DNA of 64,000 nt from assembly GCF_012295525.1 (NCBI RefSeq), contig NZ_CP051167.1:2170001-2234000 (forward strand), read 5' to 3'. This document shows positions 10,266 through 54,460 of this stretch, one piece after another. The notes beneath the pieces were generated by a model that worked only from the letters and a program-made list of their open reading frames with translations, did no database searches and was not told where the DNA came from. Each line of letters opens with the position of its first letter. Position 1 is the first letter of the stretch. The translations under genes and the position numbers were made by a program. This DNA comes from Oxynema aestuarii AP17 (GTDB taxonomy: Bacteria > Cyanobacteriota > Cyanobacteriia > Cyanobacteriales > Laspinemataceae).

Positions 10266-10901
10266 CTATTGAGGGGCGATCGCCGCGTCGATGGCTTCGC
10301 GCACGTCGGGAATAAAGACCGAGTACATCCCGCGTAAATCGCCAGGGTTGAAATTATAGGCTAAATCGTTGGGATAGTTGTCTTTGACAAATTGGGGGCG
10401 ATCGTTTTTAGCGCCGTGACAGGCTAAACAACTCGCTTCTACATTAATCCGGCGATAATAACGGGTTCCTTCGCGACCGTCGATCGTTTCGCGATCCCAG
10501 AAACCGACTAAATCGGAATCGAGGTCGAATTTATTGAGGGCGACTTCGGCTTTCATTCCGTCGGGTGCGTGAGCGGGATTGCGATATTTTTTGGCAATTT
10601 GTTTGACTTGCCAGTTGTTTTCTTTAGCTAATTCTTTCGCTCGCATCCCGACGGGTTTGCAAACTTCTTTCATCGTTTGCATCGTCGGTTCGGTGTTGGG
10701 GTCGATGGTCGCCGCCAACTCCGATCGCATCGAGTCGAGATATTCGATTTCGCGAACGGCTTTGGCTAACTCCTGGGGATTGGTTTGCGCGTTGGCGCTT
10801 TGAGGATGCCAACCGAGGAGAAAAAGAGCCAAACACAGACCGATAAATAGTTTGGAAAGTTTGGAAAAATTGGAAAGTTTGGAAAAATTAGAATGCCACA
10901 T
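10266..10901 (-). CDS. DUF3365 (Tll0287-like) c-type heme protein, exported
   Basis: This is a 211-residue protein when started at the ATG at 10901; the frame is open to 10973, but that part runs through a long hairpin. A signal peptide (LFIGLCLALFLLGWHPQSANA) precedes a mature domain of about 170 residues ending in the heme-binding motif CLACH and the conserved YPNDLAYNFNPGDLRGMYSVFIP. DUF3365 proteins have a PAS-like fold with one covalent heme; they are thought to be sensors or electron carriers outside the cytoplasmic membrane. The N-region contains a DNA-level repeat that reads FSKLSNFSKLSKLF. It lies downstream of an HlyD-like gene on the same strand, separated by a strong hairpin, so it probably has its own promoter. 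Confidence 0.88.
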   Translation of the reverse strand: MWHSNFSKLSNFSKLSKLFIGLCLALFLLGWHPQSANAQTNPQELAKAVREIEYLDSMRSELAATIDPNTEPTMQTMKEVCKPVGMRAKELAKENNWQVKQIAKKYRNPAHAPDGMKAEVALNKFDLDSDLVGFWDRETIDGREGTRYYRRINVEASCLACHGAKNDRPQFVKDNYPNDLAYNFNPGDLRGMYSVFIPDVREAIDAAIAPQ

Positions 10902-10946
10902 AATAAAGGTTTTTGAACTTTGCTTGAACTTTGCTACAAAATCACG

Positions 10947-10990
10947 GTCAATGGGGTAGCAATTTTTTAGCAAATTGCCACCCCATTGAC
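10947..10990. terminator. long hairpin between hlyD-like and DUF3365 genes
   Basis: GTCAATGGGGTAGCAATTT is followed, after a short loop, by its near-perfect complement (18 of 19 positions). The position just after the minus-strand HlyD stop fits a transcription terminator or RNA-stabilising hairpin. There is no T-run directly after it. Confidence 0.6.
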
Positions 10991-11001
10991 AGCGATCCTC
11001 A

Positions 11002-12582
11002 CTACGAGTTGGTGACGGTCACGGTCGTGCCATCTTTCAAGTCGGCGGAGGGTTGGAGGATGACGCGATCGCCGCGTTCCAAACCGGAAAACACTTCGAC
11101 CCGATCGCCCGTTTCGCTACCCGTGGCGATCGCCTGGAAGCGGGCGCGATCGTCAACCACTTTATACACCCCCGTAATCCCCATGCGTTCGACGATCGCC
11201 GTTTTGGGAACGCTTAAGGCGCTCCAGTACGCCCCTTGCTCGCCGACGGAAGGTTTCGCACTCAGGCGGATACGTCCGAACATTCCGGGAATCAAATCCG
11301 GCTCGTACTCCAGGGCAATTTTGACGGTAAAGTTGTGAGCGGTCGGGTCGGCGGAGGGGATAATCTGGGTGACTTGTCCGCTTACGACGCGATCGATCGC
11401 GTCGAACTCGACCTCGAAATCGTCTCCCTGGCGCACTTGTTTGACGAAGGATTCGGGGATGGCGGCGCTAAAGCGCAATTTTTCCGTACTTTCGAGGGTG
11501 ACTAACGGTTGTCCCGGCCCCGCCATGGCGCCGACTTCGGTATGTTTGCGGGTGACGACGCCATCGAAGGGCGCCTTGACCGTACCGTAATCTAAATTGG
11601 CGATCGTCTGTTCTTGGCTGGCTTGGGCTTGTTCGACTCCGGCGCGGGCTTGGGCGATGCTGGCTTCGGCTTGGTCTACGGCCCCTTGAGCTTGTTCGAT
11701 CGCCGCGTCCGCTTGGCTCACTTGAGACCGAGCCCGTTCGACTCCCGCCTCAGCTTGGGCGATCGCCGCTTCCGCTTGTTCGATTCCCGCTTCGGTTTGG
11801 GCGACCGCGCGGTCGGCTTGGTCGATTCCCGCTTCAATTTGCCCGATGCGCGCTTCGATGACGCTGACGCGGGTATTGGCAGTGTCGAGTTGGGACTCGC
11901 TGATCGCGCCTTGGGAATATAACAAGCTCATGCGCTGTTGATGTAATTTGGCGTCGGCGAGTTCGGCTTCGGCTTCGCTCAGTTGCGCTTCGGCTTCGCG
12001 TTTGGCGGCGATCGCCCGTTCTCGTTCGGCTTGCGCTTGCCGCTTTTGCGCTTGCGCCTGGTTGCGATTGGCGATCGCTTGATTGAATTGGGCTTCGGCT
12101 TGCGATCGCGCGGCGACGGCTTGATTTTTTCCGGCGATCGCCTGGATTTGCGCCGATCGCGCCACGGTCACGGAGGCTTGAGCTTGGGCGATCGCGGCGG
12201 TGGCCCGATTGCTTTCAGCTTGGATATCTTTGGCGTCGATCTCGACCAAAATATCTCCCTGGCTCACGCGATCGCCTTCTTCTACGGATAAGCGTTGAAT
12301 CTGCCCCATCACCCGACTGGTCACGGTTACGGTGTCGATCGCTTCCGTGCTGCCGATGGCGCTGCGATCGGCTTGGGTCGTTTGTTCGATCGCCGGGGCG
12401 ACCCGGACGGCGATCGCTTCCGGGGTCGTCGCCACGGCGGCTGATTCGACGGGTTCCCGTTGGACTGTATTCGCCAACCACCAGCCTGCTGCCGAGGAAC
12501 TGGCGACAATCACGACAAGTCCGCCGAGGAGTAACGGTAAAGATTTGGGGGGGTGCCAGTGGCGATCGTCTAAACTCTGCAT
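11002..12582 (-). CDS. HlyD/RND-type periplasmic adaptor with very long coiled coil
   Basis: This 526-residue efflux adaptor has an N-terminal membrane anchor at about 16-38. The split biotinyl-lipoyl domain (VTVTSRVMGQIQRLSVEEGDRVSQGDILVEID ... TVKAPFDGVVTRKHTEVGAMAGPGQPL) is interrupted by an unusually long alpha-helical hairpin of about 200 residues. That hairpin is made of repeated heptad-like units rich in Ala, Gln and Glu (AxAQAEAxxxQA). A beta-barrel and membrane-proximal domain follow. Adaptors of this type link an inner-membrane pump to a TolC-like outer-membrane channel; neither partner is in the window. A strong AGGAGG precedes the ATG at 12582. It lies 260 bp downstream of an ArsR regulator on the same strand, so co-regulation with the sulfide genes is possible. 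Confidence 0.92.
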   Translation of the reverse strand: MQSLDDRHWHPPKSLPLLLGGLVVIVASSSAAGWWLANTVQREPVESAAVATTPEAIAVRVAPAIEQTTQADRSAIGSTEAIDTVTVTSRVMGQIQRLSVEEGDRVSQGDILVEIDAKDIQAESNRATAAIAQAQASVTVARSAQIQAIAGKNQAVAARSQAEAQFNQAIANRNQAQAQKRQAQAERERAIAAKREAEAQLSEAEAELADAKLHQQRMSLLYSQGAISESQLDTANTRVSVIEARIGQIEAGIDQADRAVAQTEAGIEQAEAAIAQAEAGVERARSQVSQADAAIEQAQGAVDQAEASIAQARAGVEQAQASQEQTIANLDYGTVKAPFDGVVTRKHTEVGAMAGPGQPLVTLESTEKLRFSAAIPESFVKQVRQGDDFEVEFDAIDRVVSGQVTQIIPSADPTAHNFTVKIALEYEPDLIPGMFGRIRLSAKPSVGEQGAYWSALSVPKTAIVERMGITGVYKVVDDRARFQAIATGSETGDRVEVFSGLERGDRVILQPSADLKDGTTVTVTNS

Positions 12583-12842: not shown

Positions 12843-13190
12843 TTAAGAATGTGCCAGGATTTTTCGATCTTGTAAAAGATGACGGGCGCTGACACACAAA
12901 CCGAGTAAATCTGGGTCGATCACCCGATAGTAACGACAAACACCGACGCGCTTGCACGCTACAATTTTAGCATCTTTTAAGAGGCGTAAATGTTTGGAAA
13001 CGTTGGCTTGGTTCAAGCCCGTGCGATCGCAGATTTCTTGAACGTTCCGTTCTCCCCCACAGATCGAGGATAAAATTTGCAAGCGCGCGGGTTCTCCCAA
13101 AATTTTGAATCGGTTAGCCAGAGATTCGAGTTCGTCTGGACTGAGGTTCATTTCCATAGAGAAATTCCTGAAATTGACTGCTGAATTCAA
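12843..13190 (-). CDS. ArsR-family transcriptional regulator, possible persulfide sensor
   Basis: This 115-residue winged-helix repressor is typical of ArsR: RFKILGEPARLQIL, then the recognition helix TGLNQANVSKHLRLL and the wing VGVCRYYRV. The start may be ATG 13190 or a later one (13157 or 13151). The classical ELCVCDL metal site is absent. Cysteines are at 44, 54, 79, 85 and 99. C44 lies in the helix before the ERNV turn and C99 in the last long helix, the places used by the persulfide-sensing SqrR/BigR subfamily. The gene lies 129 bp downstream of sulfide:quinone oxidoreductase on the same strand, which supports control of that operon by reactive sulfur species. The sensing chemistry is inferred from position only. 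Confidence 0.9.
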   Translation of the reverse strand: MNSAVNFRNFSMEMNLSPDELESLANRFKILGEPARLQILSSICGGERNVQEICDRTGLNQANVSKHLRLLKDAKIVACKRVGVCRYYRVIDPDLLGLCVSARHLLQDRKILAHS

Positions 13191-13319
13191 TGCGTTTGAA
13201 TCGGATCGCTGGGCGAGTCAAGTTCGCGCGATCGCAACGGACGAGATGACCTCTGATGGGGAGACCAAACGGATAATTTATAGATTCATTCTCTGACGAC
13301 CTCCGTTTCCGAGTTAAAC

Positions 13320-14657
13320 TTACGTTTCTACTTTCGATCCCCCGACTCCGGCGAGCGATCGCCCCTGTTCGACTGCGATCTCCTCGTCGGGATCGAGGGG
13401 TTCGACGAGGGACAGGCCCAAGGTTCGCAGTCCCAAGCGCTCGAACCACGGCACTGCCATTCCCCAGCGCATTTTGGCGAGGAAAAACGTCTCGAACGCG
13501 AGTTTGCTCCAGCTCACCCAGCGCCCCTGTTTGACCACGGCCCGACGGCGTTTTCCGGTTTTGCGATCGGGCAGAACCGGATCGGCAATGAAAATTAAGC
13601 CCGTATCGCCAAAGTCGGCCATGCAAATCGCTTCTAAGGTCGGTTTGACGGGTTTGCCGCCCATGACACCGAGTTCGAGGGCGATATTGTGAGCCGCCGC
13701 CATTCCCATCGCTTCGGTCATTTGTCCGGTTTTGGGAACGCCCAAGGGCAGGGGGGTGACTTCCGGCGGGGCGATCGCCACTGCAATCCCGGCGGCATAG
13801 ACCGAGGGAAAATCCCGGTGGCGCCCGGTGGGTAACACGGGAATAAAGCCGTTTTCATCGCCGAGTCCGGGGGTCGATCGCACGAAGCGAGGGCCGCGAA
13901 ATGGGGGCAAGAGCATTGAATAGGCAAAGGGAACCGACTCGCCGTTACTCAAGCAGACGCGATCGCGCTCGATCGAAGTAATTGCGGTATTCTCCATCAA
14001 CGTCACCTCGCGTTTTTTCATCAAGGCGGTGACCATTTCTGAGGAGTTCGCCATCCCCCCAATCCCGAGATGTCCCGCATAGGGTTCCGGGGTGATGAAG
14101 GTAATCGGAACGCGATCGCGCAAGCCGTACTTCCTCAAGATAAAATCGGCTAATAACGCAAATTCATACGCCGGACCCATGCAACTGGCTCCCGGTACGG
14201 CGCCGACCACTAACGGTCCGGGATTTTTTAAAAACGCTTTCCAAGCGTCGCGAGCGATTAAGGCGTGTTGCGGGTTGCACACGGACTGTGTATAACCGCC
14301 GTGCGGTCCCAAGCCACTGACGGCATCGACGGCTAATTCGGCTCCGGTGGCTACGATCAGATAGTCGTAAGCGATCGCGCGATCGCTGACGTGCAGTTGT
14401 TGCCCTTCGAGATCGATCGCCTCGACGCGGTCGTGAATCCATTCGATCCCCTGACGTCCCAAGGCGGTTGCCAGGTCTACTTGCACCCGTTCTAGGGGCA
14501 TTAAATCCATTCCCACCCACGGTAAGGAGGGAATAAAGGTGAATTGCGCGCGATCGGAAATTAACGTGACTCGATGCTTTTTCCCGAGGAGATGTCGCAA
14601 CTCATAGGCTGTCGGCAATCCCCCAATTCCGCCCCCGATGACCACGATTTGTGCCAT
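13320..14657 (-). CDS. sqr: sulfide:quinone oxidoreductase
   Basis: This 445-residue FAD enzyme oxidises sulfide to sulfane sulfur and passes electrons to the quinone pool at the membrane. The N-terminal dinucleotide site is VVIGGGIGGLPTAYEL. The three catalytic cysteines expected in SQR are present at C127 (SVCNP), C159 (GASCMGP) and C345 (EAICMADFG), close to the numbering of the Rhodobacter enzyme. A C-terminal amphipathic region (about 375-415) should mediate membrane attachment. The three cysteines separate it from NDH-2 dehydrogenases. The gene is divergent from a Rieske gene and followed by an ArsR regulator. In cyanobacteria SQR supports sulfide detoxification or sulfide-driven anoxygenic photosynthesis; the sequence alone cannot say which. 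Confidence 0.93.
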   Translation of the reverse strand: MAQIVVIGGGIGGLPTAYELRHLLGKKHRVTLISDRAQFTFIPSLPWVGMDLMPLERVQVDLATALGRQGIEWIHDRVEAIDLEGQQLHVSDRAIAYDYLIVATGAELAVDAVSGLGPHGGYTQSVCNPQHALIARDAWKAFLKNPGPLVVGAVPGASCMGPAYEFALLADFILRKYGLRDRVPITFITPEPYAGHLGIGGMANSSEMVTALMKKREVTLMENTAITSIERDRVCLSNGESVPFAYSMLLPPFRGPRFVRSTPGLGDENGFIPVLPTGRHRDFPSVYAAGIAVAIAPPEVTPLPLGVPKTGQMTEAMGMAAAHNIALELGVMGGKPVKPTLEAICMADFGDTGLIFIADPVLPDRKTGKRRRAVVKQGRWVSWSKLAFETFFLAKMRWGMAVPWFERLGLRTLGLSLVEPLDPDEEIAVEQGRSLAGVGGSKVET

Positions 14658-15028
14658 TTGTTTTTTTATCCTCCATCCGGTAGACCCGATGCCGATTGCG
14701 GCGATCCCGAAGACCGACCTGACGGGCGATCGAATCTTAACGACTATTTATAACTAGATACTTATTTAATCATACTACGGGGGGATTGACAAGACCCGAT
14801 CGCGATTCCACTGCCAAGCCGTGGGGCAACCGAGACACGAAAGCCGCCACCACGAGCGTCGCCATCCCTGGGGGGCGATCGAGGTTTTTTATTTTTTTAA
14901 AGGGTTAAACCCCTTCAAGGACAAGGCTTTGCCCGCATTTACTGCAAAAATTTTTCAAGATCGATCCCATTTTTACTTGACTAATTAACTAAATCACTAT
15001 TAAGCTATATAGCAAGATGTAAAAATTT
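14658..15028. promoter_or_regulatory. divergent promoter region between sqr and the Rieske gene
   Basis: This is 371 bp with no gene. Near sqr is an AT-rich stretch (about 14740-14775: TATTTATAACTAGATACTTA and ATTTAATCATACTA) that could hold its promoter and an ArsR-type operator. Near the Rieske gene is a palindrome GCTATATAGC at 15004-15013. The middle is GC-rich without recognisable elements. Operator assignments are inference. Confidence 0.4.
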
Positions 15029-15589
15029 ATGACAAATCTGGAGGATGCGATCGTGCAAGATAGTTTCAGTTATTCCAACCCTTCAATGTCCCGGCGCAAA
15101 CTGCTCAACTTTCTGACCGGAGCCGCCGTCGCCGCCAGTGCGGGGGGCGCCCTGTATCCGGCAGCGAAATACTTCGTCCCGCCGAAAGAAAGCGACAGCA
15201 GCGACGGCGCCATTCTCGCCAAAGATAAACTCGGTCACGTGATTCCCGCGAGCCAGATTTTAAGCGAACCCGTCGGTACCCGCGCCTTAATCGCCGGACT
15301 CGCCGGAGAACCGACCTATTTAACCGTGAAAGCGAACGGTACCCTCGACGATCGCGGCATCGTCAACAACTGCACTCACCTCGGCTGTACCTTCCCGTGG
15401 AACGGGAGAGACGAACAATTCCAATGTCCCTGTCACGGATCGCGCTACAGTCCCGACGGTTCCGTAGTACGCGGTCCCGCAGACCGTCCCTTAAAGTTGG
15501 TTCGCGTCCGCGTAGAGGATAATCGAATCTGGATTGCTCCCTGGACTGATATCGATCCGAGAACGGGCGCCAAACCTTGGTGGGTGTAA
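15029..15589 (+). CDS. petC: Rieske iron-sulfur protein of cytochrome b6f type
   Basis: This is a 186-residue PetC-like protein. After a 20-residue leader, SRRKLLNFLTGAAVAASAGGALYPAAKYFVPP forms the single membrane helix with an RR motif that suggests Tat-dependent insertion. The soluble domain carries CTHLGC (C115, H117, C120) and CPCHGS (C133, C135, H136): C115, H117, C133 and H136 bind the cluster and C120-C135 form the disulfide. PetC transfers electrons from plastoquinol to cytochrome f. Cyanobacteria often have several petC genes, and the main one normally lies with petA. This copy lies divergently from sqr and next to a rhodanese gene, so it is probably an alternative isoform for sulfide-exposed or low-potential conditions (inference). 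Confidence 0.93.
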   Translation: MTNLEDAIVQDSFSYSNPSMSRRKLLNFLTGAAVAASAGGALYPAAKYFVPPKESDSSDGAILAKDKLGHVIPASQILSEPVGTRALIAGLAGEPTYLTVKANGTLDDRGIVNNCTHLGCTFPWNGRDEQFQCPCHGSRYSPDGSVVRGPADRPLKLVRVRVEDNRIWIAPWTDIDPRTGAKPWWV

Positions 15590-15638
15590 CCCTTGCCAGC
15601 CCAGCCCTCGACGACATTAATTTAAGTGAGATCGAAAC

Positions 15639-16025
15639 ATGACTTTTACTACTTCTAAAGCTCGACAAGCATTTACCGATATCGACCCGCGCGAATTCGT
15701 TACCCTCAACGATCCGCCCTTGTTAATCGACGTGCGATCGCAACTGGAATATCAAACCGGACACGTTCCCGGCGCCGTCAATCTCAGCTTACCTCGCTTG
15801 TTGCTCGGTTCGATTCCGATGCTGCGATCGCTCGTGTGGCCCGAATGGTTTCGCGACATCGAAAAAGATCGAACCGTCGCCGTCATTTGTTTGAGTGCCC
15901 ATCGCAGTCCCATTGCTGCCGATTACTTGGCGAAACAAGGCTTCGATCGCGTTTGGAACCTGATCGGCGGTATGTTGGAGTGGAAGCGCTTGGGACTGGA
16001 AACCCGAAGCGGCAAACAACCTTAA
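15639..16025 (+). CDS. single-domain rhodanese
   Basis: This 128-residue cytoplasmic sulfurtransferase domain has the fold-start motif PPLLIDVRSQLEYQTGHVPGAVNL and the active-site loop CLSAHRS with catalytic Cys84. Rhodaneses move sulfane sulfur from thiosulfate or persulfide to acceptors such as glutathione or cyanide. It starts 49 bp after the Rieske gene on the same strand and is probably in the same transcript. Placed opposite sqr, it could take up the persulfide made by SQR. A separate rhodanese gene lies at 52797-53135 and is not closely similar. Confidence 0.92.
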   Translation: MTFTTSKARQAFTDIDPREFVTLNDPPLLIDVRSQLEYQTGHVPGAVNLSLPRLLLGSIPMLRSLVWPEWFRDIEKDRTVAVICLSAHRSPIAADYLAKQGFDRVWNLIGGMLEWKRLGLETRSGKQP

Positions 16026-16204
16026 TTTAGGTTAATTTAATCCGTTAATTTAAGTCATGAAATCGATCGCGATCGCGAGTTTGACAGTCATCCTCGAACC
16101 CTTGAAACTTGTTCAAATTCTCGATGCAATTGCACCACCGAACTCGTGCCTGTTAAATTCCGCGATCGCCTCCTAACTTTACTCATTTTACTGGAGGATC
16201 TGCC

Positions 16205-16894
16205 ATGATCTCCCGTTTAAACGCTCCAGGCAATTGGTACAAACAATTGTTTGCTTGGGGAATGTCAAAAGTCAACCGTGCCGATGAAAGCGCGATCGCC
16301 GTGCGCGAATGCGATCGCTACCGATCGATCGGCGAACTCAAACGCGATTTACTCGGCGATTTGTCCGGTACTGTCGTTGAAATTGGTCCCGGTGCGGGAA
16401 ACAATCTCGGTTATTATAGTTCCGAAATAGATTGGGTGGGAATCGAACCCAATCCCTTCATGCATCCGTATCTCGAACAACAAGCTGGACGAGTCGGTCT
16501 GAAACAGGCTCGGGTTCACTTAGGAACGGCGGAAAAACTCCCCTTTGAAGACGGACAAATCGATGCCGTCGTCGGCACTTATGTTTTATGTTCTGTCGAG
16601 AACTTGTCCCGAAGTTTACAAGAAATTTTGCGAGTTCTCAAGCCCGGAGGACAATTTATTTTTGTCGAACATATCGCCGGACAATGCGGGACATTAACGC
16701 GAACCGTGCAGAACGCGATCGAACCTGCTTGGAAAAAAGCATTTGACGGTTGCAATCCCAATCGGGAAACGGGAAACGCCCTCAAACAAGCTGGCTTTGA
16801 AGCCGTTGAAATGTTTGATTTTTCTCTATCGATTCCGATTGTCAGCCCCCATTTAGCCGGAATTGCGCGCAAACATGGCGATCGCCTGTTTTGA
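16205..16894 (+). CDS. class I SAM-dependent methyltransferase
   Basis: This 229-residue methyltransferase of the UbiE/Methyltransf_11 type has motif I VVEIGPGAGNNLGYY at about 57-71, an acidic residue after the second strand (WVGIEPNPFM), and motifs LPFEDGQIDAVVGTYVLCSV and LRVLKPGGQFIFVEHI. A GGAGG ribosome-binding site precedes the ATG at 16205. The substrate cannot be read from the sequence; thiol methyltransferases such as those that detoxify sulfide belong to this broad class, and the position in the sulfide cluster makes that thinkable but not shown. It follows the rhodanese gene by 179 bp and precedes the flavoprotein by 44 bp. Confidence 0.9.
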   Translation: MISRLNAPGNWYKQLFAWGMSKVNRADESAIAVRECDRYRSIGELKRDLLGDLSGTVVEIGPGAGNNLGYYSSEIDWVGIEPNPFMHPYLEQQAGRVGLKQARVHLGTAEKLPFEDGQIDAVVGTYVLCSVENLSRSLQEILRVLKPGGQFIFVEHIAGQCGTLTRTVQNAIEPAWKKAFDGCNPNRETGNALKQAGFEAVEMFDFSLSIPIVSPHLAGIARKHGDRLF

Positions 16895-16938
16895 AGCACT
16901 GATAAAATTCTGTTGTTTTTTTTATTTCACTTAATCCT

Positions 16939-17937
16939 ATGAAACTGACCAAAAAGAACTTGGAAGAACGGCGCGATCGCGTTTACGATGCGATCGTTAT
17001 TGGCGGCGGTGCGGGCGGACTGTCTGCTGGAATTTACTTGCAACGCTATCGCCTTTCGAGCTTAATTATTGATAAAGGAAAGGCGCGATCGTTTTGGATG
17101 CAAGAACTGCACAACTATCTCGGCTTACCTCCAGACACTCCCGGACGAGTTTTACTCAAACGAGGAGAGCAGCATTACGAATCCGTTAACGGGGACATGC
17201 TCAACGGCTACGTCGAAGAAGTCGTCGATGAGGGAGAGACATTTGCAGTGCGCGTCAAAGTCGGTCGGCAAAATAGTATTTACCCGACGTTTCGAGCCAA
17301 ATACATCATCGCGGCGAGTGGAATTATCGATAATTTAGTGCCGTTGGAAGACATGAGAAATGTCTTTGAATATGCGGGTTACAATCTGCACGTTTGCATG
17401 GTTTGCGATGGCTATGAAATGGCCGACAAACAGTGTGGATTTTTTGCCGGAAGTGAAGCCAGCATCGAAGAAATGGTGTTTAATTTAAGCTGGTTTACGC
17501 CCTATATTACGATTTTCACCCACGGCTTATTTGAAGTGAGCGAACCCCTGCGGCAAGAACTGCGCGAACACGGCTATCGGTTAGTAGAAACGCCGATTAA
17601 GCAGTTTCTCGGCGAAAACCATCGGATGACCGGGGTGGAATTGGTCGATGGAACGGAGATTGGGTTAGAAACGGGATTAATTTCGATGGGTTCGACCTAT
17701 CACAATACTTATTTGAAGAATATCCCGTTGGAGATGAAAGGCGGTTATTTGATAACGGATAAGATGGGACGGACTTCTCACCCGCGTATTTTTGCGATCG
17801 GCGATTTGAAGGTGGGATTAAATCAAGTGGTGGTGGCGGCGGGAGATGGCGCCTTGGCGGCGACCCAAATCTGGCGGGAAATTCGGCGCGATCGCGGTCC
17901 GCGTCGGTGGGAAGAGAATCTTTCGGCGTCAGTTTGA
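16939..17937 (+). CDS. thioredoxin-reductase-like FAD/NAD(P) oxidoreductase
   Basis: This 332-residue flavoprotein is built like thioredoxin reductase: FAD site AIVIGGGAGGLSAGIYL at about 18-34, a redox-active-type CxxC (C153-M-V-C156, followed by DGYE), an NAD(P) region FFAGSEASIEEMVFNL and a closing FAD motif RIFAIGDLKVGLNQVVVAAGDGALAATQIWREI. True TrxR has CATCDG; here CMVCDG is close, but the NADPH-binding HRR..R signature is missing, so the electron donor or partner may differ. Related cyanobacterial proteins without NADPH activity are known. The gene ends a probable operon with a Rieske protein, rhodanese and methyltransferase, which suggests thiol or persulfide redox work. Confidence 0.9.
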   Translation: MKLTKKNLEERRDRVYDAIVIGGGAGGLSAGIYLQRYRLSSLIIDKGKARSFWMQELHNYLGLPPDTPGRVLLKRGEQHYESVNGDMLNGYVEEVVDEGETFAVRVKVGRQNSIYPTFRAKYIIAASGIIDNLVPLEDMRNVFEYAGYNLHVCMVCDGYEMADKQCGFFAGSEASIEEMVFNLSWFTPYITIFTHGLFEVSEPLRQELREHGYRLVETPIKQFLGENHRMTGVELVDGTEIGLETGLISMGSTYHNTYLKNIPLEMKGGYLITDKMGRTSHPRIFAIGDLKVGLNQVVVAAGDGALAATQIWREIRRDRGPRRWEENLSASV

Positions 17938-51465: not shown

Positions 51466-51882
51466 ATGTCAGATTTGTTTTCTACCCAATGGATGGAGCA
51501 ATTTAAAGAAGCGTGGAATGCCGATGAAGAACTCACCAGCTCTCTAGCTAAAATCAATTTTAATTCTATTATCGGCTATGGATTTAAAGATAGCGATCGC
51601 CCCACTGGCTTTATTGAAATTGTCAACGGAAAAGCAGTGAATGCCGGAAGCTACGACGGTCAAACACTGAATTGGGATTTACGCGCTTCCCGAGAAAGCT
51701 GGGAAAAATGGCTTTCTCAAGGATTAAATATGATGGGTCTGAGTATGGCCTATATGAAGCGCAATATAGTCTTTCCCGTAGGCGACTACGGCGCCATGAT
51801 TAAAGATCCGCGCATGGCCGGACCATTTGTCAAAAGTTTTGCCGTGATGGGACAAGTTTCAACTCACTCAAGTGTCAGCTAA
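51466..51882 (+). CDS. SCP2-like sterol-carrier-domain protein
   Basis: This 138-residue soluble protein begins MSDLFSTQWMEQFKEAWNADEELTSSLAKINFNSIIGYGFKDSDRPTGFIEIVNGKAVNAGSYDGQTLNWDLRASRESWEKWL, the pattern of SCP2-type domains that bind lipids or other hydrophobic ligands. The region AYMKRNIVFPVGDYGAMIKDP is the second half of the fold. A clear TTAGGAGC ribosome-binding site precedes ATG 51466. Its ligand is unknown. The neighbours do not form an obvious pathway. Confidence 0.8.
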   Translation: MSDLFSTQWMEQFKEAWNADEELTSSLAKINFNSIIGYGFKDSDRPTGFIEIVNGKAVNAGSYDGQTLNWDLRASRESWEKWLSQGLNMMGLSMAYMKRNIVFPVGDYGAMIKDPRMAGPFVKSFAVMGQVSTHSSVS

Positions 51883-52065
51883 CTCCTACCTCTAAAAAGA
51901 GCGATTCTACCTCTGAGTCCGAGCGAACAGGGGGGACAGTTGGCGCCTCTCTGTTCTTTTTTGAAAAGATTCCATTAATTGCCAAAATAAGCAAAAATAC
52001 AGATTTACATACATAACCATTTAGGTATATAGTTAAATCAACAAGCAAAAAGAAAGGTAAATTCA

Positions 52066-52626
52066 ATGCAACGCTTAACCCGTTTATTTTCCCCCTCTTC
52101 CCTTTTGGCAACCCTAGCGATTGGCTTAGGCAGTCTCGGCGCGATCGCCACCCCTGCGAGTGCAGTAGAACTGCCTGACGGCACGATCGCCTTTGAAGCC
52201 CCGCCGCGTTTTGTCTCACTCTCCGCCAATCATCCTTGTGCGAGCGTTCCCTCAAACTATTACTTCACCCTCGAAGTTCCCGAAAGTGCGGGAGAAGCGC
52301 TCAAACAAGTGACCATCACCCAACCCGAAGGAGCCGAAGCACTCGACTTTAACTTCGATGCTTCCGTCGCCTGCGAAGGCGGACGCGGGGGGAGAAAAAT
52401 TGCCCTCGAACGAATGAATTCAGATCCCAATAACGATCGCTCTTGGACATTTTCCTTCGATCGCGCGATCGAACCCGGCGAGAAAGTCACCATTCGCCTG
52501 CACACCGATCGCAATCCCGAATTAGATGGTTTCTATCTCTTTGGCGTCACCGCTTTTCCCGAAGGCGAACAAGTTCGCGGTCAATTCTTAGGCTTACACC
52601 AATTATCCTTAGACGGTGGCAGCTAA
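52066..52626 (+). CDS. exported DUF2808 protein
   Basis: This is a 186-residue protein with a signal peptide ending ATPASA-VELPDG at about residue 33. The mature part (FYFTLEVPESAGEALKQVTITQPEG... FDRAIEPGEKVTIRLHTDRNPELDGFYLFGVTAFPEGE) matches DUF2808, a family of small exported proteins of cyanobacteria and relatives. Two Cys (PCASVPSN and ASVACEGG) may form a disulfide. The function is unknown. A hairpin follows the stop and probably ends transcription. Confidence 0.88.
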   Translation: MQRLTRLFSPSSLLATLAIGLGSLGAIATPASAVELPDGTIAFEAPPRFVSLSANHPCASVPSNYYFTLEVPESAGEALKQVTITQPEGAEALDFNFDASVACEGGRGGRKIALERMNSDPNNDRSWTFSFDRAIEPGEKVTIRLHTDRNPELDGFYLFGVTAFPEGEQVRGQFLGLHQLSLDGGS

Positions 52627-52644
52627 CAGAAAAGCCCACGACTA

Positions 52645-52683
52645 AAGACCTCCCCCGATCGAGGGAGAATAGGGGGAAGTCTT
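52645..52683 (+). terminator. hairpin after the DUF2808 gene
   Basis: AAGACCTCCCCC pairs with GGGGGAAGTCTT with one mismatch. No T-run follows, so it may be a weak terminator or mRNA end. Confidence 0.6.
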
Positions 52684-52796
52684 GACAGTATTAGCTTCGT
52701 AAAAGCTATCCTAAATATTCTCAGTCTTCCTCAGATTTCAGATCGATTTTAAGTCCAAACTCTCATTCAACTTGCAAATAGGAGAATCGGCAACTC

Positions 52797-53135
52797 ATGG
52801 CTCAAACCAAAAAACGCAAGGCAACCCTGAAAACCCTGACCCCCTCTCAATTAAAATCCCGTAAACAGCAATTAGAAATTATCGACGCGCGTGGATTTTT
52901 AGAATATCTCTTCGGTCACATTCCCGGCGCCAAACGTATGAGCCGCGATCGCATTCTCCAAGAACTCCCCAAAGATCGGGCGATCGTCGTCACTTGCATG
53001 TCCGGCGCCCGTAGCGCCGCCCTCGGTCACTGGCTCGTCGCCCAAGGCTATCAAAAAGTCTACAACTTGCAAGGTGGATGTATGGGCTGGCAACAATCTG
53101 GATATGGCCTCAAGCAAGGCAGAAGTGAAGCTTAG
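52797..53135 (+). CDS. single-domain rhodanese
   Basis: This 112-residue sulfurtransferase domain has a basic N-terminus. The fold motif LEIIDARGFLEYLFGHIPGAKRM and the active-site loop CMSGARS with Cys67 are both present. An AGGAGA ribosome-binding site lies before ATG 52797. It is a different subtype from the rhodanese at 15639. It probably transfers sulfane sulfur in general metabolism; the neighbours give no specific clue. Confidence 0.92.
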   Translation: MAQTKKRKATLKTLTPSQLKSRKQQLEIIDARGFLEYLFGHIPGAKRMSRDRILQELPKDRAIVVTCMSGARSAALGHWLVAQGYQKVYNLQGGCMGWQQSGYGLKQGRSEA

Positions 53136-53374
53136 AAAGAGGCAAAAGGCCAGAGGAAGGGGAGTAGGGAGTAGGCAAAAAGTAAAAGGGAAGAGGGTCG
53201 CCCATTCTAATTCCCCCTTCCCTCCATCTAAAATCTAAACTCTCAACTCTAAATCCCCTCAAATTTCTCCCTCTCTAACAGCCAAAAACCTCTTGTTTCT
53301 GCTTTTCGAGACAAGGGGTTTTCCTCATCAATGACGCATTGAAATCAAGACAAAATTAACCGTTCTCAAAACAG

Positions 53375-54460
53375 ATGATGACCTCTTTACCCCCTCTTCA
53401 AATAGGCCGACATACCGCCCGCTATCCGATCGTCCAAGGCGGTATGGGGATTAGAATTTCAGGAGCCAATCTCGCCGCAGCCGTCGCGAATGCTGGAGGA
53501 ATTGGGATTGTTTCAGCAGTCGGATTGGGACTGAACTCGCCCTACTACGATCGCCAACAGAAAAAAGGGAATTTTTTTGAAGCCAATCGGTTAGCATTAA
53601 TCGACGAATTAAACCAAGCCCGCGCCCTCAGTCCGGACGGCATTCTCGGGATTAACGCGATGGTCGTCGCCCGAGATTACGAAACATTAGTGAGAACGGC
53701 GGCGGAACGCGGTGTCAATTTGATTATCTCAGGGGCGGGATTGCCCATTCACCTGCCGAAATATACAAAAGACTATCCCGACGTTGCCCTCGTGCCGATC
53801 GTCTCCTCCACCCGGGCGGCGAAAGTCATCTGTCGCAAGTGGGAACGGCTTTACGATCGCCTCCCGGATGCCTTCGTCGTTGAAAATCCCAATACCGCAG
53901 GCGGTCACTTAGGCGCAAAATACGAAGAACTCTACGATCCCGCCCTCGACGCCGATCGCGTCATCCCCGAGTTAATCGAATTTCTCAACAGCGAATACGA
54001 TCGCCCCATTCCCGTCATCGCGGCGGGAGGAATCTGGGATCGCGGCGACATCGATCGCGCGATCGCACTAGGTGCGGCGGGGGTGCAAATCGGCACGCGC
54101 TTTATCACCACCGACGAATGCGATGCCGACGTGCGCTATAAAGAATTCCACTGTCGGGCCCGTCCGGAAGACGTGGTTATCGTTCCCTCTCCCGTCGGCT
54201 TACCCGGACGGGCCTTAAAAAATCCGTTCGTCGAAAAAGCGATCGCCCATTCCGACGAATTAGAGACAAAATGTCTGGCGAACTGCCTGCAAGTGTGCGC
54301 CTGTCGCGATCGGCGCCAGACCTATTGTATCGTGCAGGCCCTCGATCGCGCCGCGCGCGGCGACATCGAAAACGGCTTGATCTTCGCCGGAAGCAACGCC
54401 GGACGCGCTCGAAAAATCGTCCCCGTCGCCGAAGTGATGGCCCAATTAGTCGCCAGTTAG
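53375..54460 (+). CDS. nitronate-monooxygenase-like FMN oxidoreductase
   Basis: This 361-residue TIM-barrel flavoprotein of the NPD/YrpB group starts RYPIVQGGMGIRISGANLAAAVANAGGIGIVSAVGLG. VVENPNTAGGHLGAK contains the conserved His, VIAAGGIWDRGDIDRAIALGAAGVQIGTRFI the phosphate-binding loop. The C-terminus has a Cys-rich segment CLANCLQVCACRDRRQTYCIVQAL found in a subgroup related to FabK enoyl-ACP reductases and 2-nitropropane dioxygenases. Whether it oxidises nitronates or reduces another substrate cannot be told. ATG at 53375 or 53378. Convergent with cupB. Confidence 0.88.
   Translation: MMTSLPPLQIGRHTARYPIVQGGMGIRISGANLAAAVANAGGIGIVSAVGLGLNSPYYDRQQKKGNFFEANRLALIDELNQARALSPDGILGINAMVVARDYETLVRTAAERGVNLIISGAGLPIHLPKYTKDYPDVALVPIVSSTRAAKVICRKWERLYDRLPDAFVVENPNTAGGHLGAKYEELYDPALDADRVIPELIEFLNSEYDRPIPVIAAGGIWDRGDIDRAIALGAAGVQIGTRFITTDECDADVRYKEFHCRARPEDVVIVPSPVGLPGRALKNPFVEKAIAHSDELETKCLANCLQVCACRDRRQTYCIVQALDRAARGDIENGLIFAGSNAGRARKIVPVAEVMAQLVAS

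Follow-up and report, generated by a model that had tools for sequence, protein, structure and literature searches.

Why should a cyanobacterium carry a gene for an extra Rieske subunit of the cytochrome b6f complex next to a gene for sulfide:quinone oxidoreductase (SQR)? The question is raised by an island of six genes in a 64,000-nucleotide stretch of the Oxynema aestuarii AP17 genome (hereafter the window; bases 2170001-2234000 of a cyanobacterial genome that forms one contig of 6.36 Mb), in which genes for SQR and an ArsR-type regulator diverge from petC and from genes for a rhodanese, a methyltransferase (MT) and a flavoprotein. The genetic regulation by which cyanobacteria change over between water and sulfide as sources of electrons is described as little known in passages of PMC8651085. 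An earlier note on this DNA had read the genes as a sulfide-response island, and that interpretation is partly supported by the analysis that we describe. The island is a true and recurring one. Its pairing of SQR with petC varies a theme already in print, and an operator-like site, together with the wider gene set that carries it, is the feature worth following.

Gene order and recurrence

Each of the six genes is an open reading frame (ORF) where the earlier note had placed it, and the divergence of SQR and ArsR from petC, rhodanese, MT and flavoprotein was borne out in coordinates and strands (Table 1). The intergenic gaps measure 129 nucleotides (nt) between ArsR and SQR, 371 between SQR and petC, 49 between petC and rhodanese, 179 between rhodanese and MT, and 44 between MT and flavoprotein. 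Since the 179-nt gap has space for a second promoter, one transcript for the last 4 genes is graded here only as likely.

We observed that SQR and an alternative form of PetC, described below, tend to occur together in 388 genomes of the class. Among the matches listed, on which all counts in these genomes rest, SQR is found in 108 genomes (7 of them with only a partial gene of 172-373 aa; fragments G341 and G175 were dropped) and the alternative PetC in 77, with both in 57, SQR only in 51, PetC only in 20 and neither in 260. These values give an odds ratio of 14.5 (p 9e-22), or of 11.3 (p 1e-17) when the small-genome family f17 is set aside, both uncorrected for phylogeny.

Physical linkage was followed in 108 SQR loci, that is, 107 fetched stretches and the window, some of which share one genome; L129 (no SQR ORF), G216 (a 3 kb contig) and some second copies were left out, and ORFs and genes first in their units were picked with simple scripts. 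An alternative petC lies within the stretch in 36 of these loci, window included (26 divergent, 9 in the same direction and 1 convergent), and the gap is shorter than 1.5 kb in 22 of the 36. SQR also stands beside petC in L194, L195 and L215, outside that count. Viewed from the other side, SQR is present in the fetched flank (up to 6 kb) of 29 of 80 named petC loci, which are the best 80 of 117 and overlap in part with the 388-genome set. Loci of this kind with no visible SQR often have rhodanese, DUF302, psbA, YgaP-like transmembrane (TM) or ETHE1-like genes near petC, and 10 of the 80 have no searched family other than petC itself. By gene order, by co-occurrence in the 57 genomes with both genes and by the common palindrome described below, the earlier note's tie between an extra Rieske subunit and SQR is supported.

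The full order, SQR divergent from petC-rhodanese-MT and the flavoprotein gene, recurs in L258 (Trichormus sp. M33_DOE_039) and L287 (uncultured Coleofasciculus). L257 and L302 contain shorter versions of it, and L294 has the 4-gene series without SQR. The earlier note had asked whether sulfide-adapted cyanobacteria keep the order, and here the result was mixed: no SQR was seen in the fetched petC flanks of Geitlerinema BBD 1991-9 (L277), Phormidium sp. OSCR (L326) and Phormidium pseudopriestleyi FRX01 (L290), the FRX01 contig stopping 0.7 kb past petC. We take the first 2 of these strains to live with sulfide; FRX01 does so according to passages of PMC8002359.

An operator-like palindrome

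During a search for an ArsR operator, a palindrome, ACTATAT-N4-ATATAGT, was spotted in the stretches upstream of SQR. It was first seen by eye in motif-search output and tested afterwards, so that its count at SQR is not independent of its discovery; its counts at unlinked petC, psbA, ETHE1-like and ArsR genes concern other places than the discovery set. Two conserved stretches returned by the motif searches are not this palindrome and were set aside, the first being mostly the SQR gene start, which the input had contained, and the next occurring in a single group of loci at ~140-260 nt upstream.

At least 11 of the 14 arm bases were matched in 31 of the 36 SQR loci that have an ArsR close by (2.5 expected from block shuffles) and in 51 of the 72 others (3.75 expected). 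With a matrix made from 81 SQR sites, window excluded from training, a score of at least 10 was reached upstream of SQR in 86 of 108 loci, which are the training set (3.0 expected from shuffles). In held-out sequence, up to 1.5 kb before alternative petC genes that are not linked to SQR, 20 of 37 reached this score (2.3 expected). The main petC reached it in 0 of 20 cases, and control stretches did so in 6 of 172 (Fisher p 1e-5 and 5e-13, respectively, for relatives that are not independent). Also, 39 of the 80 named petC loci score at least 12 within 1.6 kb upstream.

The palindrome was then counted before genes that are first in their units, sites near SQR being excluded. It precedes 8/8 ETHE1-like, 8/10 YgaP-like TM (DUF2892), 8/13 psbA, 10/21 ArsR and 7/21 DUF302 genes, and 28/415 other genes; given this last background, a single site is weak evidence. 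The count for ArsR fits autoregulation. Within the 64 kb of the window, 3 matches with at most 3 mismatches were found where 0.86 are expected. Two lie between SQR and petC, and by the matrix made without the window the SQR-side site scores 12.0 bits and the petC-side site 15.1 bits.

In the whole genome, fitting genes adjoin 4 of 10 inspected sites, both one-mismatch sites among them: an ETHE1-like gene (with a TauE-family neighbour), the acsF/heme oxygenase-hemN pair, a psbA gene, and a set of DUF2808, rhodanese and NMO genes. The ETHE1-like name is a label for a family of the metallo-beta-lactamase fold that falls below every curated cut-off, with 97.5 and 110.5 bits against 625 for the Blh dioxygenase model and 105.6 and 117.8 bits against 200.8 for GloB; the copy in this genome is 71% identical to family member L118. 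Two further names are labels only, SCP2-like (no Pfam match) and ACR3 (SBF family; ACR3 model 86.1 bits, cut-off 282.8). The palindrome between acsF and heme oxygenase-hemN (L237, genome position 423476; hemN is cut by the locus end, at 287 of 325 bits) differs from the published motif of ChlR, the regulator that controls acsF and ho-hemN at low oxygen in other strains according to passages of PMC4500134.

The psbA gene that carries the palindrome (L332/L244, genome position 3278821) encodes a D1 protein that shares 72% identity with the standard D1 of this organism. At the manganese-ligand positions as these are listed in the passages of PMC8002359, it reads D170E, E189D, E333A and D342I, with no residue aligned at 344; another psbA copy, 84% identical to standard D1, retains all 7 ligands. 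Glu occupies position 170 in 15 of 26 PsbA sequences of SQR loci. An upstream site scoring at least 12 precedes 10 of the sequences, of which 8 keep every ligand and 2 carry Glu170. In Pseudanabaena-type loci (L253, L259, L264, L269) psbA directly follows petC, and PsbA of L063, L078, L072 and L054, which are taken, respectively, as the same loci, has Glu at 170; L054 contains a second, ligand-complete copy. A DUF3122 gene is divergent from the psbA at 3278821.

No match to the ChlR motif TTMCC-N3/4-GGWAA with at most one mismatch was found in positions 14658-15028 of the window, and the RexT motif given in passages of PMC8960804, ATTCG-N15-CGAAT, differs from the palindrome. We found no publication title concerning the palindrome, a search by title that did not extend to the motif letters in full text.

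The alternative Rieske protein

The PetC of the island qualifies as a b6f Rieske subunit not only by the NCBIfam model in Table 1 but also by PF25471 (72.1 bits, cut-off 37.1) and by its CTHLGC and CPCHGS boxes. The earlier note had allowed that this might be the only petC of the organism, but the genome has 4 places with a Rieske domain, and the main petC was found at 2768498-2769031 beside petA, which we named by eye from sequence. Its product is 50% identical to the PetC of the window, which rules out the main petC as the copy linked to SQR.

In the 388 genomes, the PetC matches listed fall into 2 groups, one 62-75% identical to the window protein (the 77 genomes) and the other at most 54% identical. 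A tree built from 75 sequences of the alternative group and 21 of the main one separates them with support 1.0. Beside the cluster-binding loop, 72 of the 75 alternative sequences read CTHLGCTFPW and 21 of 21 main sequences CTHLGCVVPW; both groups keep CPCHGS. The Ser and Tyr of CPCHGSxY raise the redox potential of Rieske proteins. The Tyr is replaced by Phe in 9 of the 75 alternative sequences, and the window PetC keeps Ser and Tyr, so that its sequence gives no sign of low potential; the earlier suggestion that it might run at another potential is thus not indicated.

In a Synechocystis salina locus, L312, the gene order is psbA-rhodanese-DUF2892-petC, which resembles the slr1181-slr1185 cluster of Synechocystis as described in passages of PMC5295598. 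From this match and from the clade separation, the alternative clade is provisionally taken to be the PetC2 of the literature.

SQR and the ArsR-type regulator

Residues 2-420 of the island SQR align with chains of the Acidithiobacillus ferrooxidans enzyme at E 2e-100 (phmmer), and with the next kind of solved chain, 3hyv, at E 8e-95. All 3 catalytic cysteines that the earlier note had reported are present, Cys127, Cys159 and Cys345 lying opposite the 3 cysteines of the A. ferrooxidans enzyme. Bit scores fall from 340 against chain 3sz0 to 321 against 3hyv and 130 against 3h8i, and by this similarity ranking the protein is a putative type I SQR. The selenoprotein type III family was ruled out (101.6 bits, cut-off 525).

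The regulator exceeds the ArsR/SmtB subfamily cut-off (Table 1) and not the BigR equivalog cut-off (NF040642, 38.6 vs 155 bits); it is therefore not classed as BigR. Its Cys44, Cys54, Cys79 and Cys99 are kept in 31, 33, 32 and 33, respectively, of 33 homologues with at least 50% identity; among 29 homologues that are more remote, 26 retain Cys99. SqrR and BigR rely on one cysteine in helix 2 and one in helix 5 (passages of PMC8960804). The island ArsR may act in a similar way, with Cys44 and Cys99 as a possible equivalent sensing pair. Another candidate regulator is a Crp-like protein with a cNMP-binding domain (L236, 1826-2578), which is divergent from the ETHE1-like gene with the palindrome between them.

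Products of the genes downstream of petC

Cys84 of the rhodanese is the sole Cys of that protein. The flavoprotein, which the earlier note had called thioredoxin reductase-like, is better named as a diflavin-linked disulfide oxidoreductase (DDOR) of the Slr0600 family: its best solved relatives are Slr0600 (5jri/5k0a, E 1.3e-130) and Gll2934 (5n0j/5ode, E 1.4e-116), with which it shares sequence, the CxxC box and the first GxGxxG. The box, CMVCDG at residue 153, is CMICDG and CLICDG in those proteins; in a set of 8 DDORs, window included, it is CMVCDG in 7 and CMICDG in 1. By direct reading, the NADPH motif GxGxxA/G is not present at CGFFAGSEAS. In the review PMC9025218, in the passages concerned, DDOR is described as lacking NADPH and thioredoxin sites and as possibly drawing electrons from glutathione, and its frequent neighbours are given as PrxII and PerR, unlike the petC, rhodanese and MT of the island.

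The MT reaches no NCBIfam cut-off and finds only generic matches among solved structures (best YcgJ, E 4e-11); the next-best match in its own genome is 34% identical across 111 aa. Thiol/H2S S-methyltransferases include the METTL7/TMT1 enzymes of animals and Mdd, and the MT may resemble METTL7. METTL7B methylates H2S (passages of PMC7921093), and H2S methyltransferases exist in bacteria (passages of PMC12904073). The earlier note had regarded MT and flavoprotein as unexpected partners. They now appear less odd, with DDOR in 8 and MT in 6 of 109 SQR loci, window included. The MT family was also seen near petC in the named genomes L258, L261, L262, L267, L278, L287, L294 and L302.

The small protein that precedes petC in other loci (e.g. 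L086, 2554-2814), called DUF2892 in papers, corresponds to PF11127, a YgaP-like TM domain. E. coli YgaP fuses such a domain to a rhodanese, and its gene adjoins that of a SqrR/BigR-type regulator.

Neighbouring genes

The RND-type adaptor and Tll0287-like families, both encoded to the 3' side of ArsR, occur in 38 and 50 of 109 SQR loci, respectively, window included. Tll0287 is cited in passages of the review PMC4582080 as a hemoprotein associated with photosystem II that holds the D1' protein PsbA2. The first 40 kb of the window yielded no member of the RND pump family that occurs beside other SQR genes. The commonest family of the SQR loci after SQR itself is a DUF3122 protein of ~178 aa (e.g. 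L043, 5770-6306; 65 of 109 loci), the function of which is unknown according to Pfam. A second set of sulfur-type genes occupies 51466-54460 of the window, with the third palindrome followed by genes for a DUF2808 protein, a rhodanese and an NMO-family protein; the preceding gene, at 51466-51882, encodes a protein without a Pfam match that shares 58% identity with one member of a family present in 32 of 109 SQR loci.

Table 1. Features of the window discussed in the text (coordinates are window positions)
Feature	Position	Strand	Remarks
Tll0287-like protein	10266..10973	-	PF11845 106.3 bits
Membrane-fusion protein, RND adaptor type	11002..12582	-	3' of ArsR; TIGR01730 226.6 bits, cut-off 94.9
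ArsR/SmtB-type regulator, candidate sensor	12843..13190	-	3' of SQR; NF033788 76.1 bits, cut-off 55
SQR, A. ferrooxidans/Aquifex-like	13320..14657	-	phmmer; Cys127, 159, 345
Operator-like palindrome, SQR side	14753..14770	.	96-113 nt before SQR start codon
Operator-like palindrome, petC side	14996..15013	.	ends 15 nt before petC start codon
Alternative b6f Rieske subunit, PetC2-like clade	15029..15589	+	NF045928 281.2 bits, cut-off 250; separate clade
Single-domain rhodanese	15639..16025	+	PF00581 70 bits; Cys84 in CLSAHR
Class I S-adenosylmethionine MT, candidate thiol/H2S S-methyltransferase	16205..16894	+	PF08241 67.8 bits
DDOR, CMVCDG	16939..17937	+	Slr0600, Gll2934 matches
Third palindrome	52016..52033	.	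before DUF2808-rhodanese-NMO genes (52066-54460); 2 mismatches
Rhodanese of second sulfur-type set	52797..53135		
NMO-family protein of second sulfur-type set	53375..54460		

Proposed mechanism and its rivals

We propose that the island forms the centre of a gene set under common control that feeds photosystem I with electrons from sulfide at low oxygen, a proposal that we regard as evenly poised between right and wrong. In this scheme, an ArsR-type repressor, most simply that of the island, would sit on the palindrome at both divergent promoters and would leave the DNA once its conserved cysteines have been modified by sulfide or persulfide. SQR would then oxidise sulfide and reduce plastoquinone, and the alternative Rieske protein would replace the main one in cytochrome b6f and relay the electrons to photosystem I. 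Rhodanese, DDOR and MT, with the ETHE1-like (persulfide dioxygenase-like) enzyme encoded elsewhere in the genome, would handle sulfane sulfur and thiols, and the D1 copy without manganese ligands, which carries the same palindrome, would stop water oxidation by photosystem II. Sulfide resistance, another partner protein, or assembly at low oxygen may be the reason for a second Rieske subunit.

A bolder version, which we offer only tentatively, is that one palindrome and one regulator, probably a thiol-sensing ArsR beside SQR, switch photosynthesis genome-wide from water to sulfide. The set so controlled would comprise SQR, the second Rieske protein and a D1 that cannot bind the manganese cluster, along with functions for the removal of persulfide and for making pigments with less oxygen.

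Several observations weigh against the main scheme given first. Among the matches listed, the alternative PetC was not seen in 51 of the 108 genomes with SQR, and in 20 genomes it was seen without this SQR. In L258 and L287, where the order of the island recurs, ArsR was not seen beside SQR, and the phylogenetic profile cannot single out the regulator, ArsR homologues being present in 80 of 80 genomes tested. As for the palindrome, 17 of the 37 unlinked alternative petC genes score below 10. With sites near SQR excluded, it precedes only 1 of 13 first-in-unit petC genes (an exclusion that in divergent pairs removes petC's own promoter too), 1 of 20 Tll0287 genes, 0 of 9 adaptor genes and 1 of 9 genes of a second YgaP-like TM family. 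Both intergenic sites of the window have 3 mismatches each; in the whole genome, 13 sites with at most 2 mismatches compare with 7 for a reversed control pattern; and of the 10 sites that we inspected there, 6 were not recognised as adjoining fitting genes. Finally, the published clusters respond to low oxygen, and sulfide was not a variable in that work, so far as the passages of PMC5295598 extend.

An oxygen signal is the chief rival, given the low-oxygen response of the similar clusters already in print. The genes would then form a low-oxygen response set under another regulator, with SQR as one such gene and petC outside the control of sulfide. According to passages of PMC5295598, an Acaryochloris petC that lies upstream of psbA1 and has rhodanese and DUF2892 genes nearby increases ~16-fold (log2 4.03) under microoxic conditions, and a similar psbA1-rhodanese-petC cluster of Synechocystis is also higher in such conditions; the palindrome between acsF and ho-hemN, genes that papers place under low-oxygen ChlR control (PMC4500134, in part), agrees with this. 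Yet the ChlR motif, as quoted in passages of PMC5295598, is not the palindrome and is without a match between SQR and petC, and the presence of the palindrome at all 8 ETHE1-like genes and at about half of the ArsR genes fits a sulfur signal. We consider this explanation rather unlikely.

We think it improbable that the island is a cluster for detoxification of persulfides and thiols, in which a spare Rieske protein replaces subunits damaged by sulfide and any gain of electrons from sulfide is minor. Rhodanese, YgaP-like TM, ETHE1-like or DDOR genes do stand beside petC in many loci without visible SQR, and DDOR mutants are sensitive to oxidative stress (passages of PMC9025218). However, the link to SQR and the D1 variants without manganese ligands, including the 15 PsbA with Glu170, argue for a rewired photosynthetic electron flow and not for repair alone. 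Chance adjacency of SQR and petC, though the stretch lacks an alternative petC at 72 of the 108 SQR loci and the link is absent in the 3 strains taken as sulfide-associated (L277, L290, L326), is already disfavoured by the linkage counts from both sides, with the common palindrome, to the point of being negligible.

Relation to known systems

The closest published counterpart of the island is in metagenome-assembled genomes of Thermostichales (PMC11304991, 2024), where a type I sqr is flanked by petC2; sqr and a petC are thus neighbours there as in the island, and the same proposal of electron transport under hypoxia was made. The window differs in having rhodanese, MT and DDOR after petC and ArsR after SQR; a 388-genome count, a separate PetC clade and a palindrome do not figure in the passages of that paper concerned. 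The Acaryochloris petC-rhodanese-DUF2892-psbA1 and Synechocystis slr1181-slr1185 clusters likewise place petC near a rhodanese. Unlike the Acaryochloris microoxic cluster, the window has no psbA beside petC, and it contains SQR, which does not appear in the passages of PMC5295598, a paper whose text contains neither "sulfide" nor "sulphide".

According to passages of PMC5061849, a sqr1-arsR operon of Geitlerinema PCC 9228 has ArsR to the 3' side of SQR, as in the island. Those passages also describe sqr near psbA of groups 2 and 3, a linkage to variant psbA that is shared with the SQR loci described here. The text of that paper contains neither "Rieske" nor "rhodanese", nor any word beginning with "petC", and its passages describe no operator. 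The ChlR regulon, in passages of PMC4500134, shares with the palindrome-bearing set the targets acsF(chlAII)-ho-hemN and a psbA variant; ChlR, however, is of the MarR type and its recognition motif is unlike the palindrome. In PCC 7002 petC rises with polysulfide, in passages of PMC12466478 that do not say which petC.

In summary, the adjacency of SQR and petC and the low-oxygen petC-rhodanese-psbA cluster are already published, and the palindrome with its wider gene set is the new part. With one operator-like site common to SQR, the alternative Rieske protein, D1 variants and sulfur genes, there are now defined stretches of DNA and a candidate regulator for testing, and PetC2 gains a probable setting.

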